In this document: positions 47,081-53,743 of the stretch, one piece after another
Position numbering within the stretch: the stretch's first letter is position 1
How the letters are laid out: every line of letters starts with the position of its first letter
NCBI GenBank assembly: GCA_010672585.1
Contig: JAAHGF010000008.1
Coordinates: 249,964-313,963 of the forward strand
Length of the DNA: 64,000 nt
Direction: 5' to 3'
DNA from: Okeania sp. SIO1I7
GTDB lineage: Bacteria > Cyanobacteriota > Cyanobacteriia > Cyanobacteriales > Microcoleaceae
Made by a program: the position numbers and the translations under genes
The notes under the pieces: model-generated
Told to the model about the DNA's origin: nothing
Databases searched by the model: none
What the model saw: the letters and a program-made list of their open reading frames with translations, nothing else

Positions 47081-48305
47081 ATGAAAGCTAGGTTTAAGTA
47101 TCGTATATATCCTACACAGGGACAAAAGCATCGATTAGCAAAGCTATTTGGTTGTGTTTGCTGACGCAACACTTCGTGAACGTGTTGTTTGGAATGATAG
47201 CCTAGCTTGCTGTCAAGAAAAATACAAATCAGGAGGCAAGAAACCCAGTAACTCACAGCTGCAAAAACAGTTTATTACTCAGGCAAAAAACACTGAAGAT
47301 AGAGAGTGGCTTAAAGAAGTTTCTAATATACCATTGCAGCAATCTTTGAATGATTTAAACCAGGGTTATCAAAACTTTTTTAAATCGACTAAAGGCCAGA
47401 GAAAAGGTAAACCTGTAAAACCTCCTAAATTTAAAAGTAGAAAGTCAAAGCAAACTGCTAGGTTTACAAAGGGAGGGTTTAAAGTTGGTCAACATAAAGT
47501 TTATTTAGCCAAGATTGGAAAGCTCAAAATTGTTTGGTCAAGAGAGTTACATACTGCTCCATCATCAGTAACAGTAATCAAAGATTCAGCTAATAGATAT
47601 TTTTTGAGTTTTGTAGTAGAAATACAACCAGAAATCTTACCTCAAACGGATAATTCATTAGGTATAGATTTAGGAATTAAAACCTTTGCTACATTCAGCA
47701 ACGGTGAAAAAGTTGATGCACCAAAACCGTTGAAAAAACGGATTAAAAAATATCGCAAGTTGAGTAGGTCATTATCTAACAAAACTAGAGATTCTAAACG
47801 ATATGAAAAAGCAAGACTAAAAATAGCTAAGTTCCATGGAAAATTGAAAGATACAAGGACAGATTTTCTGCATAAATTGTCTACTAAAATAATTCGTGAA
47901 AACCAAACAGTTGTTTTAGAAGATTTGAATGTTTCTGGAATGGTTAAAAACCGTAAATTATCTAGAGCAATTTCTGATTTAGGTTGGCGAAAATTTAGAA
48001 CTTTATTAGAAGGAAAAGCTGAGAAATACGGTCGTGATTTTAGAATAATTAGCCGCTGGGAACCTACAAGTCAAGTTTGCTCAAATTGTGGCTTTAAAGG
48101 TGGTAAACTAGACCTTCAGGTAAGAGAATGGGAGTGTCTCAACTGCGGTGCAAAACATGATAGAGACGAAAATGCAGCAATAAATATATTAGTCGCGGGC
48201 GGGCAGTCCGAGACATTAAACGGACGTGGAGGCAAGCGTAAGACTACTGTAAAAGTAGCAGCAGCCTGTGAAGCGTCAACTCGCCGAGGAGCTACGGCTC
48301 AGTAG
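47081..48305 (+). pseudogene. tnpB: tnpB frameshifted by a 22-bp insertion near its start
   Basis: The ATG at 47081 opens MKARFKYRIYPTQGQKHRLA then KLFGCV and meets TGA at 47162. Removing 22 bp (47159-47180) restores GCVRVVWNDSLACCQEKY and an uninterrupted TnpB of about 400 residues to TAG 48303-48305. It retains RuvC-I (LGIDLGIKTFATFS), RuvC-II (VVLEDLNVSGM), zinc finger (CSNCG ... CLNCG) and RuvC-III (DRDENAAINIL). The insertion is open in the downstream frame, so a TTG at 47148 could still start a protein missing the first strand of the wedge domain. No tnpA lies nearby. Confidence 0.85.
47159..47180 (+). repeat. 22-bp small dispersed repeat inserted in tnpB
   Basis: TGCTGACGCAACACTTCGTG then AA separates the codons for GCV and RVVW. 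Related strings are TGCTGACGCAATGCTTCGCG (34239) and TGCTAACGCAAAGCTCCGC (28734). It matches the size and style of SDR elements known in Nostoc. Confidence 0.7.
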
Positions 48306-49178: not shown

Positions 49179-49823
49179 TTACTTCTGTTGAAATTCCTTT
49201 AATAACCAAGGATAAACTTGACCTTGGTTTGTTTGGCAACTGCGCTGAAGTGCTTCTTCTAACAAAGAAATGGCTAAAGCAGGCAAAACTTGAGAGTGAT
49301 TAATTTTTCTACTTCCTCCATTGGCAACTGCAAAAGCAATAATTTCTAGATTCTGTACGTCAACTATCCAATATTCAGAGACATTCATTGCTTCATACAA
49401 CAAACGTTTTTCGCCTTTATCATCAGCAAGAGAAGTATTAGCAACTTCAATGACTAGGGTTGGTGGAGGATAAATATCTAGATCGATAATAGAAGTTCCC
49501 CTGGGAATAATATTTGCATTTTCAGCAATGTAACAGGAGACATCGGGTTGAGCTTCTCGAAGCCCAGTTTTGCGATAGGTGCAGTTATCTTTAAAGTTTA
49601 GGTTGATATTTCTGGTAGCAGCAAAGAGGCCAACTGCAATAGTGATAACTGCATGGTCATTAGCGTGGTCGTTGCCTACGGGGGACATTTCTATTCTAAG
49701 TTTTCCTTTGTGATAGTAACTTTTAGCTTTTTCGTAAGTTGGGTTTTGAATAGTTTGGATATATTCTTGCCAAGTTGCTGTTACCCAGGTATCTGTGGGT
49801 AGTTGGGTTTGGGTTTGATTCAT
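49179..49823 (-). CDS. Uma2-family (DUF820) PD-(D/E)XK nuclease-like protein
   Basis: The 214-residue protein belongs to the Uma2/DUF820 family, abundant in cyanobacteria. The core shows the nuclease-fold pattern: REAQPDVSCYI (Asp), TLVIEVANTSLADDKGEKRLLYEAMNVSEYWIVD (broken here: LVIEVANTS, the Glu, and DKGEKRLLY, the Lys). The role is unknown despite the fold; many copies per genome suggest a mobile or addiction-like behaviour (inference). Its 5' third and leader are duplicated about 0.8 kb downstream at 48813-49048. Confidence 0.85.
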   Translation of the reverse strand: MNQTQTQLPTDTWVTATWQEYIQTIQNPTYEKAKSYYHKGKLRIEMSPVGNDHANDHAVITIAVGLFAATRNINLNFKDNCTYRKTGLREAQPDVSCYIAENANIIPRGTSIIDLDIYPPPTLVIEVANTSLADDKGEKRLLYEAMNVSEYWIVDVQNLEIIAFAVANGGSRKINHSQVLPALAISLLEEALQRSCQTNQGQVYPWLLKEFQQK

Positions 49824-49936
49824 TGTCGAATAATTTTAATTTATTGCAGTAAGGGAATTTCAAAAAAATTTCGACGCGCGTTAGTGCGACTCAAAGGAAA
49901 GAGGAAAAAAGGGGAAAAGAAAAGAGGGGAAGAATA

Positions 49937-51790
49937 CTAGGAAGCAAAGGCAGACGAGACAACGCGAAAACCCACATAGTTGTAGTGGTTGCCCGCATAG
50001 TCGTCGTTACGCCTGGCACTCCTACAATACCAAGAATCGTTGAGCCAGCTACCGCCACGGAGCACTTGGCCTCCACCAAAGATCGATTTGAAAAATCCTT
50101 TTTCTGGGGTTTCCCAAGGACTACCATTAGTAGGCGCACCATTATAGTTATCATGCCAGATATCCTGACACCATTCCCAGACGTTGCCGTGCATATCGTA
50201 TAAACCAAAAGCATTAGGAGGAAAACTTCCTACATCACAAGTAGACTGACTATTGTAGTTAACCAAACTAGGGGTAATACTCGAACCAAAATAGAAAGGA
50301 GTAGTTGTACCAGCACGGCAAGCATATTCCCACTGACTCTCACTGGGTAGTATATAAGCTTTTCCAGTTTTTATAGATAGTTTTTGGCAAAATTCAGTTG
50401 CATCAAGCCATGTCACATTTTCGACTGGACGCTTTTCTCCTTCAGAGTCTTTTCTAAATAGTTTTTTTCCTTTAAATCGAGAGGGGTTTTTGCCCATAAT
50501 AACTAAATATTGTTCTTGAGTAATGGGGTATTTACTCATATAAAAAGGTTGGAGAGTAACTTGATGCTGCGGACCTTCATTTTTATTTCTTCCCTCTTCA
50601 TTTTCTGGCGAACCCATGAGAAAACTTCCCCCAGGAATATAAACCACTTCTAATTTAATTCCACTACCTAAATCTTCTATTTTTTGCCTCGCACTTCCCT
50701 GGGTACGGTGAGTAAGATAGCTGGAATTATCGAAAGTTAAAACTTCAAAAGTAAATAGCTCTCCTTTTTCTGATTCTGCTGAATAGAAAACACAGGGCAT
50801 TGATGATTGAGATATTTCTGGTGGAGAAGTAAATTGTTCTTGTAGTTGATTGGTAGGCGGAATAATTGATGGTTGAGATATTTGCGATGGAACAGTAGGC
50901 TGTATTTTTCTTTGATAGTTAGGCAGAATAAGAGGCAAAATTTCTCCTACATTTTTAAACCTTTTTTTCGTTCCTGCAACAATCATTTTATCCAAGATTT
51001 CTCCTACTCCATCACTCAGACTCGACTTTAAATAATATCGCCAAACCCAATCATTTTCACTCATATCAAATAAATCAAAAGGTTCTACTTGAGTTAATAA
51101 ATGAATACAAGTCAGACCCAAACTATAAATATCACTAGCAAAAGTTGCTTTTCCTACTGCTTGTTCTGGTGCAGTATATCCGGCAGAACCTATAACAGTT
51201 CCCGTCACAGCTAAAGCAGTCTTTGTGGCATATTTAGCCGCCCCGAAATCTACCAATATTAATTGATTATCATTCTTTCTCCTAATAATATTCTCTGGTT
51301 TAATATCTCGATGAATTACCTGCTGAGAATGAATAAATTTCAACACAGGCAACAAACTTTTTAATAACTCTAAAATTTGACTTTCATCAAAATATCCCGA
51401 CTCTTCTAATTCCTGTTGTAAATTTTGCCCGTCGATAAATTCTTGTACTAAATACTGTCGATTATCCTGAGTAAAATATGCGAAAAGTTCGGGAATTTGT
51501 GGATGTCTACCTAAACCATCTAAACGTTGAGCTTTTTGAGCAAATAATTCCGCAGCTTTTTCTAAAGTTTTAGTTCCTTGTGCTTGAGGAAAAAATTGTT
51601 TAATTACGCAAAAAGGCTTTGAAGGTTTATATTCATCTACAGCTTGAAAAGTTCTGCCAAAACCTCCTTGTCCGATAATTTTTAGAGCGCGATAACGTTC
51701 GGCTAAAACTAATTTTTCACCACAGCTTTGACAGAATTTTGTTTGTGGTGGGTTGGATTTTAAACAGTCAGGATTTAAACATTGAGTCAT
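49937..51790 (-). CDS. Ser/Thr kinase fused to FGE-sulfatase (SUMF1/C-type lectin fold) domain
   Basis: From MTQCLNPDC (ATG 51788-51790, matching its paralogue) the protein has 617 residues. It begins with a zinc ribbon (CLNPDC ... FCQSCG), then a Hanks-type kinase at about 35-290 (GQGGFGRTF, CVIKQF, HRDIKPENI, VDFGAAK, APEQ), a linker, and an FGE/SUMF1 domain at about 375-617 (IPGGSFLMGSPENE, ENVTWLDATEFCQKLS, LPSESQWEYACRAGT, GLYDMHGNVWEWCQD, VLRGGSW, GFRVV). FGE-fold tails in cyanobacteria are often ligand-binding and are known targets of diversity-generating retroelements. The segment before GFRVV is hypervariable relative to the neighbour. The kinase appears intact. Confidence 0.9.
   Translation of the reverse strand: MTQCLNPDCLKSNPPQTKFCQSCGEKLVLAERYRALKIIGQGGFGRTFQAVDEYKPSKPFCVIKQFFPQAQGTKTLEKAAELFAQKAQRLDGLGRHPQIPELFAYFTQDNRQYLVQEFIDGQNLQQELEESGYFDESQILELLKSLLPVLKFIHSQQVIHRDIKPENIIRRKNDNQLILVDFGAAKYATKTALAVTGTVIGSAGYTAPEQAVGKATFASDIYSLGLTCIHLLTQVEPFDLFDMSENDWVWRYYLKSSLSDGVGEILDKMIVAGTKKRFKNVGEILPLILPNYQRKIQPTVPSQISQPSIIPPTNQLQEQFTSPPEISQSSMPCVFYSAESEKGELFTFEVLTFDNSSYLTHRTQGSARQKIEDLGSGIKLEVVYIPGGSFLMGSPENEEGRNKNEGPQHQVTLQPFYMSKYPITQEQYLVIMGKNPSRFKGKKLFRKDSEGEKRPVENVTWLDATEFCQKLSIKTGKAYILPSESQWEYACRAGTTTPFYFGSSITPSLVNYNSQSTCDVGSFPPNAFGLYDMHGNVWEWCQDIWHDNYNGAPTNGSPWETPEKGFFKSIFGGGQVLRGGSWLNDSWYCRSARRNDDYAGNHYNYVGFRVVSSAFAS
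49973..50044 (-). other. Hypervariable segment 1 (candidate DGR variable repeat)
   Basis: These 24 codons between GGSW and GFRVV differ from the matching segment at 52001-52072 at 21 bases, 19 of them at codon positions 1 or 2, replacing 12 residues; bases immediately outside are identical or differ only at third positions. Every difference at positions 1 and 2 can be derived from an A in a common template. Confidence 0.6.
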
Positions 51791-51949
51791 TTCTGAAAAT
51801 ATGGGGATCAACTTCTATCTCATTCCCATCCTCTAAATGGAAATTTAGGGTATTTGTTCATAATTTTGATGGTCATTTTTTCCAAACACTAAAGCAGGAG
51901 AGGGAGAGGAAAGAGGAAAAAAAAGACAAAGAGAAAAAGGGGAAGAATT

Positions 51950-53743
51950 CTAGGAACAAAAGGCAGAAACTACCGGAACAGAGGAGACGACACGAAAACC
52001 CCAAAAGTTGTAGAAGTTGACGGCAAGGATGCAGTTACGCCTGGCACTCCGGCAATTCCTAGAATAGCTGTACCAGCTACCGCCACGGAGCACTCTGTCT
52101 GCTCCAAAGATCGATTTCAAAAATCCCTTTTCTTCAGATTCCCAAGCACTACCATCATTAGGCGCTCCATTATAATTATTGTGCCAAAGATCCTGACACC
52201 ATTCCCAGACATTCCCGTGCATATCGTATAAACCAAAAGCATTGGGTGGGAAAATTCCTACTTCAGTTGTTTCTCCTAGACATTTACCTTTAGGAGCATA
52301 AGCATAAGGAAATTTACTGTCGTAGTTAACTAAGTCCGACGTTATAGTTTCTCCAAAATAGAAAGGAGTAGTTGTCCTGGCACGACAAGCATATTCCCAC
52401 TGACTTTCGCTGGGCAGTCTGTAAACTTTCTCAGTTTTCTCAGATAGCTTTTGACAAAACTCTCTAGCGTTACGCCAGTTCATATTTTCTACTGGGCGCT
52501 TTTTTCCTTTAAATCCAGAAGGATTTTCACCCGTAATGACTTGATATTGTTCTTGAGTAATGGGGTATTTACTCATATAAAAAGGTTGGAGAGTAACTTG
52601 ATGTTGCGGACTTTCATTTTTATCTCTTCCTTTTTCATTTTCTGGAGAACCCATGATAAAACTTCCCCCAGGAATATAAACCATTTCTAATTTAATTCCA
52701 TTACCTAAATCTTCTATTTTTTGCCTAGCACTTTCCTGGGTTTGGTTAATAATATTGCCTGAGTTATCGACAGTAAAAACATCAAAAGTAAATAGCTCTT
52801 CTTTTTCTGATTCTCCTGTTAATGGTTGAGATATTTGTGGTGAAGAAGTAGACGGTTTTTCAGTTTCATAAGTAGACAGAATCAGAGACAAAATTTCTCC
52901 TACATTTTCAAACCTTTTCTGAGTTGCTCCAACAATCATTTTATCCAATATTTTTCCAAGTTCATCACTCACATTTGACTGTAAATAATCTCGCCATATC
53001 CATTTACCTTCAATATTGTCAAATAAATCAAGAGGTGTGACTTGAGTTAATAAATGAATACAAGTTGCACCCAAACTATAAATATCGCTAGCAAAAGTTG
53101 CTTTTCCTAAAGCTTGTTCCGGTGCAACATATCCAGGAGAACCAATAGCAGTTCCCGTTCTTGCTAAAGCAGTCTTTGTGGCATATTTAGCCGCCCCGAA
53201 ATCTACCAATATTAGTTGATTATCATTCTTTCTCCTAATAATATTCTCTGGTTTAATATCTCGATGAATTACCTGCTGAGAATGAATAAATTCTAAGACA
53301 GGTAACAAACTTTTTAATAATTCCAAAATTTGACTTTCATCAAAAGTTCCCGACTCTTCTAATTCCTGTTGTAAATTTTGCCCGTCGATAAACTCTTGTA
53401 CTAAATACTGTCGATTATCCTGAGTAAAATATGCGAAAAGTTCGGGAATTTGTAGATGTCTACCTAAACCATCCAAACGTTCAGCTTCTCAAGCAAATAA
53501 TTCAGCAGCTTTTTCCAAACTTTTAGTTCCTTGTACTTGAGGAAAAAACTGTTTAATTACGCAAAAAGGCTTTGAAGGTTTGTCTTCATCTACAGCTTGA
53601 AAAGTTCTGCCAAAACCTCCTTGTCCGATAATTTTTAGAGGGCGATAACGTTCTTTTAAAACTAATTTTTCACCACAGCTTTGACAGAATTTTGTTTGTG
53701 GTGGGTTAGGTCTTAAACAGTCAGGATTTAAACATTGAGTCAT
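51950..53743 (-). pseudogene. Second kinase-FGE paralogue, interrupted by an in-frame TGA
   Basis: This is a tandem duplicate of the gene at 49937-51790 with the same plan: zinc ribbon, kinase (HRDIKPENI, VDFGAAK) and FGE domain (GGSFIMGSPENE, GLYDMHGNVWEWCQD, VLRGGSW). After residue 84 (KAAELFA) a TGA at 53491-53489 stands where the paralogue has Gln, and the same frame then continues EAERLDGLGR to the end at 51950. The rest is well preserved, so the loss is recent, or the stop is a sequence error. A protein started internally would lack the glycine loop and kinase lysine. Its hypervariable segment is at 52001-52072. Confidence 0.85.
52001..52072 (-). other. Hypervariable segment 2 (candidate DGR variable repeat)
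   Basis: The partner of 49973-50044 in the broken paralogue. It reads YSYSRNCRSARRNC and then ILAVNFYNFW, compared with LNDSWYCRSARRND and DYAGNHYNYV. Conserved codons (AGT GCC AGG CGT AAC) sit in the middle of the changed ones. Confidence 0.6.

Follow-up and report, generated by a model that had tools for sequence, protein, structure and literature searches.

Diversity-generating retroelements (DGRs) carry out error-prone reverse transcription at the adenines of a template repeat (TR), and the cDNA replaces the 3' end of a target gene, its variable region (VR). In cyanobacteria, targets with a C-type lectin (CLec) domain fused to a Ser/Thr kinase, and targets remote from the element, were described by Vallota-Eastman et al. 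2020 (PMC7517822), and Trichodesmium erythraeum IMS101 has two DGR reverse transcriptases (RTs) and 18 loci with TR/VR homology, at least 11 of which are hypervariable in metagenomes (PMC8867640). Here we describe two tandem genes, copy a and copy b, each encoding a kinase with a C-terminal FGE domain, in a 64,000-nucleotide stretch of Okeania sp. SIO1I7 DNA (the window, C88:249964-313963), part of a 9.48-Mb genome assembly (G000; 109 contigs, completeness 99.99%). Judged from the sequence, the 3' ends (tails) of these genes are very likely orphaned targets of a cyanobacterial DGR whose engine was lost, with the tails left frozen.

The window genes resemble the systems of PMC7517822 in having a C-terminal CLec/FGE module with a VR, a kinase N-terminus and dispersed paralogs. 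The 52 genomes of that study are ones with complete DGR cassettes, whereas no RT or template was found in the window genome. IMS101 is likewise a filamentous marine cyanobacterium with many remote targets, but it retains its two RTs and the window genome shows none (PMC8867640). As in this case, the degenerate DGR loci of Thiohalocapsa PB-PSB1 have key machinery missing or pseudogenised; unlike in the window genome, each class there retains one complete locus in the same genome (PMC10907252). DGRs with more than one TR are known from a survey (PMC6642488), and can be compared with a locus in a same-genus relative, G004, where two templates with tails of different length flank one avd-RT pair. 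Targets that join a kinase to CLec, remote targets, DGRs with several templates and degenerate loci have all been published (PMC7517822, PMC8867640, PMC10907252, PMC6642488); genome-wide orphaning, the two-template locus and a kinase with five FGE domains are less expected. We found no literature joining "diversity-generating retroelement" with "Okeania" and none, by title or opening of the abstract, on loss of the engine from a whole genome with its targets kept, in searches whose coverage leaves most subscription journals outside.

The closest relatives of the window genome are Okeania, with Trichodesmium among the nearest named relatives. Same-genus genomes used here are G004 (apparently Okeania sp. 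SIO2C9), G002 (apparently SIO2B3) and G001 (apparently SIO3B5); Okeania SIO3I5 is placed by genome classification in another genus of the same family. Because an RT and a template were searched for and not found, the tails are classed here as the work of a DGR of known kind, not as belonging to a complete DGR. The features concerned, with TR2 denoting one of the two G004 templates, are:

49937..51790, minus strand: copy a, a 4-Cys-prefix Ser/Thr protein kinase with a C-terminal FGE-sulfatase (C-type-lectin-like) domain and an intact open reading frame (ORF) (from ORF and start, Pfam Pkinase and FGE-sulfatase, NCBIfam 4-Cys prefix).
51950..53743, minus strand: copy b, a kinase-FGE gene with an in-frame TGA in the kinase domain (from ORFs; the SIO3I5 ortholog is one open frame).
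53489..53491, minus strand: the in-frame stop (TGA) of copy b, inside the kinase domain (from ORF reading).
49958..50062, minus strand: VR of copy a; its alignment with the G004 templates spans 105 nt, with 12/30 template-A and 11/75 other sites changed relative to TR2.
51986..52090, minus strand: VR of copy b, 105 nt, with 13/30 template-A and 5/75 other sites changed relative to TR2; 103/105 identical to SIO3I5 copy b.
49928..49935, minus strand: ATTCTTCC block at or downstream of the copy a stop codon, a candidate element like the initiation of mutagenic homology (IMH), with a putative function only.
51941..51948, minus strand: ATTCTTCC block downstream of the copy b stop codon, likewise a candidate IMH-like element of putative function.

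Positions 49973-50044 and 52001-52072 (minus strand) hold corresponding runs of 24 codons, between which 21 bases differ, 10/9/2 at codon positions 1/2/3. Twelve of the 24 residues differ, an A stands in one copy at 11 of the 19 differing position-1 or position-2 sites, and the block AGT GCC AGG CGT AAC is identical in both tails. These figures (24 codons, 21 differences, 19 at positions 1 and 2, 12 residues, 11 of 19 with A) had been given in an earlier note on this DNA, and every one was exact on recount. Over the 190 other codons at which the two FGE domains align, differences are distributed 26/21/50 by codon position; since this is the opposite pattern, that of the tails is more than chance.

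The pattern recurs: 14 tails were counted in the window genome, of which nine are dispersed, including the two of the window, and the other five form a tandem array on C66. They were located by searches with the copy a tail and an inferred template, followed by fetching of the regions. In the nine tails first compared, three or four bases often occur at positions 1 and 2 of the variable codons, and most third positions are fixed or nearly so. The inferred template was written by hand from these nine, with A at variable positions 1 and 2 and the majority base at third positions, before any template of a relative had been seen. The C66 array (G000:C66:176067-181967, minus strand, locus L133) is one open frame of 1,967 aa in which the same kinase is followed by five FGE domains in tandem, all with a VR-like tail at their end.

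The inferred template is 94.3% and 93.3% identical to two template repeats in G004, which stand one at each side of an avd-RT pair (L065 303-407 and 2585-2689; G004:C2:240195-242581). The RT of this locus is intact (DGR-profile E 7.6e-184, with YVDD and GNLTSQ), Avd matches NF033474 with 137.2 bits against a cutoff of 80, and there is a neighbouring target gene with its own VR. With RT, Avd, TR and adjacent VR together, the G004 locus reads as a complete DGR. Behind each of its templates the sequence shows partial duplication, and TR2 is followed by a stretch similar to the beginning of avd. A candidate for a second two-template locus, on C268 of G001, was rejected, as it contains two tandem kinase-FGE genes instead.

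Each tail was scored against the better-fitting of the two G004 templates, which come from a same-genus genome. Of 26 matches collected, two are the templates themselves, and two tails, L109 and L111, failed the anchor pattern and were excluded from this count and from that of private changes below. Together, the window tails are changed at 25/60 template-A sites and at 16/150 other sites (copy a, 12/30 against 11/75, p = 6e-3; copy b, 13/30 against 5/75, p = 3e-5), and ten of the 14 tails of the window genome have an A-site bias at p<0.01. The dispersed tails of G004 gave 10/30 vs 0/75, 14/30 vs 0/75, 9/30 vs 1/75 and 9/30 vs 5/75, and one tail of G002, whose assembly is without a DGR RT, differs from TR1 at 13/30 A sites and at 0/75 others. 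Pairwise comparison of five sequences of the window locus (copies a and b, G001, G002 and G004) gave identities of only 0.30-0.57 for the A sites of the VR; its remaining sites reach 0.80-0.95, the FGE body 0.79-0.86 and the kinase 0.90-0.96. The DGR origin that the earlier note had read from the two tails is thus supported by template repeats beside a DGR RT in G004 and by the concentration of changes at template adenines.

Fourteen RVT_1 matches are present in the window genome, most of which look like group II intron RTs when their ORFs are inspected by eye. No DGR RT was found there with RVT_1, with Brt (best match 5.3e-13, 26% identity) or with a profile built from five cyanobacterial DGR RTs of plasmid loci (best 2.2e-11; nothing at 1e-20). 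The best profile match is a broken UG4-like RT, and those ranking next have, by eye, the look of group II intron RTs. At G000:C69:7278-8030 (minus strand, locus L012) there is a reverse transcriptase of UG4 type (DRT, defence-class) whose reading frame is interrupted by a TAG. Two candidate engines were rejected: the C69 match, which is of UG4 type and broken by the TAG, and an RT at C88:406270, about 92 kb downstream of the window, which is group II intron-like by eye and not a DGR RT by profile.

No template repeat was found in the window genome with VR or inferred-template queries, and short matches elsewhere in it (15-28 bp) were rejected as candidates, their E values being above 1. In the plasmid controls the template directly follows the RT in 4/5 loci; TR-VR identity is 85-89% in 5/5, so a template in the window genome should show up in these searches. 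Among the 40 of 84 own candidates that were scored, the segment behind the G004 template matched only tail ends and short stretches in the window genome. The earlier note had counted the lack of both an A-rich template repeat and a DGR-type RT in the genome as evidence against its proposal; within the limits of the assembly, neither was found. This speaks against present activity, not against a DGR origin. The note's further suggestion, an element acting from a distance, is not supported, as no DGR RT or template was found in the assembly, the cassette is missing at the syntenic site, and copy b differs from SIO3I5 at 0/30 A sites.

Among a panel of 59 genomes, the DGR RT profile matches 17 at E<=1e-30; inspection by eye suggests RT-Cas1 fusions for two of these, G002 and G009. 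The RT-profile matches in G002, G009, SIO2F4 (its second) and Trichodesmium MAG_R03 were rejected as DGR RTs, being judged by eye to be of a common RT type, which for MAG_R03 is the Cas1-associated type; in the two long ones of these four the RT continues into a further part that is presumably Cas1-like. In the neighbouring genus-level group, DGR-type RTs are truncated in SIO3I5, truncated with a stop in Hydrocoleum CS-953, present with stops as two copies in T. erythraeum GBRTRLIN201, in two frames with a stop in SIO2F4, and interrupted by a run of N in Trichodesmium MAG_R02. These broken RTs are suggestive; four of the five are metagenome assemblies. No match to the DGR RT profile at 1e-20 was found in Okeania hirsuta, Microcoleaceae MO_207.B10 or Lyngbya aestuarii.

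We take the cassette site of G004 to lie between menF and menD. The same interval on C28 of the window genome retains the neighbouring target and its VR, and in place of the roughly 2.7 kb with TR1, avd, RT and TR2 it has some 0.3 kb. The C28 target (L137 6129-6941) has an open frame of only 271 aa for its FGE part, where G004 has 829 aa, which suggests that the N-terminal part is out of frame. The cassette is likewise missing in G003 and G002, with different break points. In G001, two pieces of the spacer between TR1 and avd, of 173 bp (89.6%) and 54 bp, are retained in place, together with the sequence leading to the first ~16 bases of TR1; this apparent scar argues for loss over a gain in G004.

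The tandem pair is also found in SIO3I5, in a matching neighbourhood, and copy b there is one open frame. The two copies b are 97.8% identical (1590/1625) outside the VR and identical at 103/105 positions within it, a rate no faster in the VR (p = 0.61), and the two differences spare all 30 template-A sites. The copy b tail therefore shows no sign of rewriting since the split from the SIO3I5 lineage. Three of the five C66 array tails, compared with orthologs in G001 and/or G004 (five pairs), differ at 0-1 of 30 template-A sites. Private non-A changes were counted in 24 tails, with 12 tandem-array tails excluded by choice; they number 1-6 of 74 in the nine dispersed tails of the window genome and 0-1 in the four from G004 (p = 0.004; the samples are small and related, and G004 is favoured as the source of the templates). 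An insertion common to copies a and b is also present in a Trichodesmium metagenome-assembled genome; it is old and was therefore not used to date any rewriting of copy a.

Behind the VR, ATTCTTCC is found at or after the stop codon in 8/9 dispersed tails of the window genome, including both window tails, and both G004 templates read CACTCTTCA at this position. Across all genomes, the block was surveyed in 22 tails (the 24 of the private-change count minus G001_L105 and G002_L110) and is present in 16, with only 2/4 in G004, where the other two read GAATCTTCC. The contrast of ATTCTTCC with CACTCTTCA looks like that of IMH with IMH*, and the plasmid control L055 has a comparable VR-versus-TR contrast. 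In most dispersed tails that have the block, its distance from GGTTTT (the register) takes one of two values, 37 or 52 bases, and in one tail of the window genome it is 49. Internal markers disagree with the register in some tails, and for this reason tails were not assigned to one template each. No common hairpin was found behind the 22 tails; only the stem of own_L135 beats shuffles (p = 0.01), and those of both window tails are not significant.

Turning to the genes themselves, the two copies stand in tandem and each has a Pfam FGE-sulfatase and a protein kinase domain. The earlier note's description of two tandem kinase-FGE genes is right as to the pair and its domains, but copy b is not intact (TGA at 53489-53491). 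The gene is single at the orthologous locus in G004, G001 and G003, and it is damaged there too, by a kinase stop in G004 (L148), a broken frame within the FGE domain in G001 (L149) and deletion of most of it in G003 (L150). Neighbours of the pair are genes at window positions 47148-48305 (plus strand), presumably an IS200/IS605-type TnpB-like gene, and 49179-49823 (minus strand), which we take to resemble Uma2/DUF820 proteins. Among PDB structures, the FGE profile matches PvdO best (5hha, E 1.3e-53) and then 2y3c (E 1.2e-33), which we take to be Treponema denticola variable protein 1 (TvpA), a DGR target; 2y3c is a 294-residue chain from a construct solved without a kinase, whereas the window copies are kinase-fused. 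The AlphaFold model, with a mean predicted local distance difference test score (pLDDT) of 58.1, was too poor and was left unused. Both copies have the C-type-lectin/FGE-type C-terminal domain carrying a VR by which DGR targets are recognised. The fusion of a variable FGE domain to a kinase, also claimed earlier, is confirmed by the Pfam domains, and kinase-fused cyanobacterial targets are already described (PMC7517822).

Ordinary divergence of paralogs under diversifying selection on a binding surface, with no retroelement involved, is scarcely credible as an explanation of the tails. Positive selection is able to raise changes at codon positions 1 and 2, and the FGE bodies diverge as well, but the changes fall where templates next to an RT have adenines, third positions are near-fixed in the VR and the most variable in the FGE body, and two G004 tails and one G002 tail have 0/75 non-A changes. 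A real possibility, if not the one that we would favour, is that whole FGE cassettes were recombined among paralogs, the DGR having written elsewhere and earlier and neither window copy having been rewritten in place; this is compatible with orphaned targets. The kinase is more identical than the FGE body among the five window-locus sequences, the FGE domain and tail of copy b are common to SIO3I5, and sequence beyond the VR is common to different loci, all of which fit such an exchange; the DGR origin stands regardless. That an engine on a plasmid or in a region outside the assembly is still active in trans, and the tails still diversifying, seems quite unlikely. Remote targets are common in cyanobacteria (PMC7517822), DGR RTs are found on cyanobacterial plasmids, the block behind the VR is retained in all but one of the dispersed tails, and the G002 tail free of non-A changes comes from an assembly without a DGR RT. 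Set against these are an assembly of such high completeness with neither RT nor template found, the cassette missing at the syntenic site, the copy b tail unchanged at A sites relative to SIO3I5, and the greater number of private non-A changes in the nine own tails than in those of G004.

Orphaned, frozen targets of a lost engine thus remain the preferred reading, and the following points weigh against it. The four remaining tails, all in the C66 array, have no A-bias at p<0.05 (p 0.08-0.74), and copy a by itself has a modest one only. The copy a tail differs from its orthologs at about half of the A sites and its FGE body is also only ~80% identical, a divergence like that among FGE paralogs, so cassette exchange is not separable from rewriting and the domain may have been swapped whole. 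An RT missing from an assembly need not accompany decayed tails, as the G002 tail shows, and the eleven tails of G001-G003 (assemblies without a DGR RT) have 0-7 private non-A changes, which does not fit a simple rule. Because no piece of avd, RT or TR is recognisable on C28 of the window genome, the case for loss there is built on synteny, on the scar in G001 and on the tails. The gene avd is absent at the syntenic C28 locus, with no genome-wide avd search made, the candidates scored for the segment behind the template were 40 of 84, and an assembly of 109 contigs leaves room for an RT on an unassembled replicon.

Under the preferred reading, a DGR would have randomised template adenines and rewritten the 3' ends of FGE domains fused to kinases and other proteins. 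The engine would have been lost in the window lineage or an ancestor, and the tails would now be inherited as frozen products altered by ordinary mutation, with copy b probably also losing its kinase through the stop codon. From homology and a published hypothesis (PMC7517822), the FGE tail may bind a ligand or substrate, by which the fused kinase would signal or be tuned.

It is possible, if doubtful, that in Okeania and in Trichodesmium/Hydrocoleum DGR engines were repeatedly lost after building sensor repertoires, with winning tails fixed and even five FGE domains stacked per kinase. If true, genomes without an RT would hold "fossil" repertoires that are invisible to RT-anchored surveys. 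The present case also suggests that RT-first searches will miss DGR-made proteins in genomes where the RT has been lost. G004, with its intact two-template DGR, and the window genome, with targets only (within the assembly), form a natural before-and-after pair, and this pair makes it testable whether selection keeps DGR-made binding sites after mutagenesis ends.

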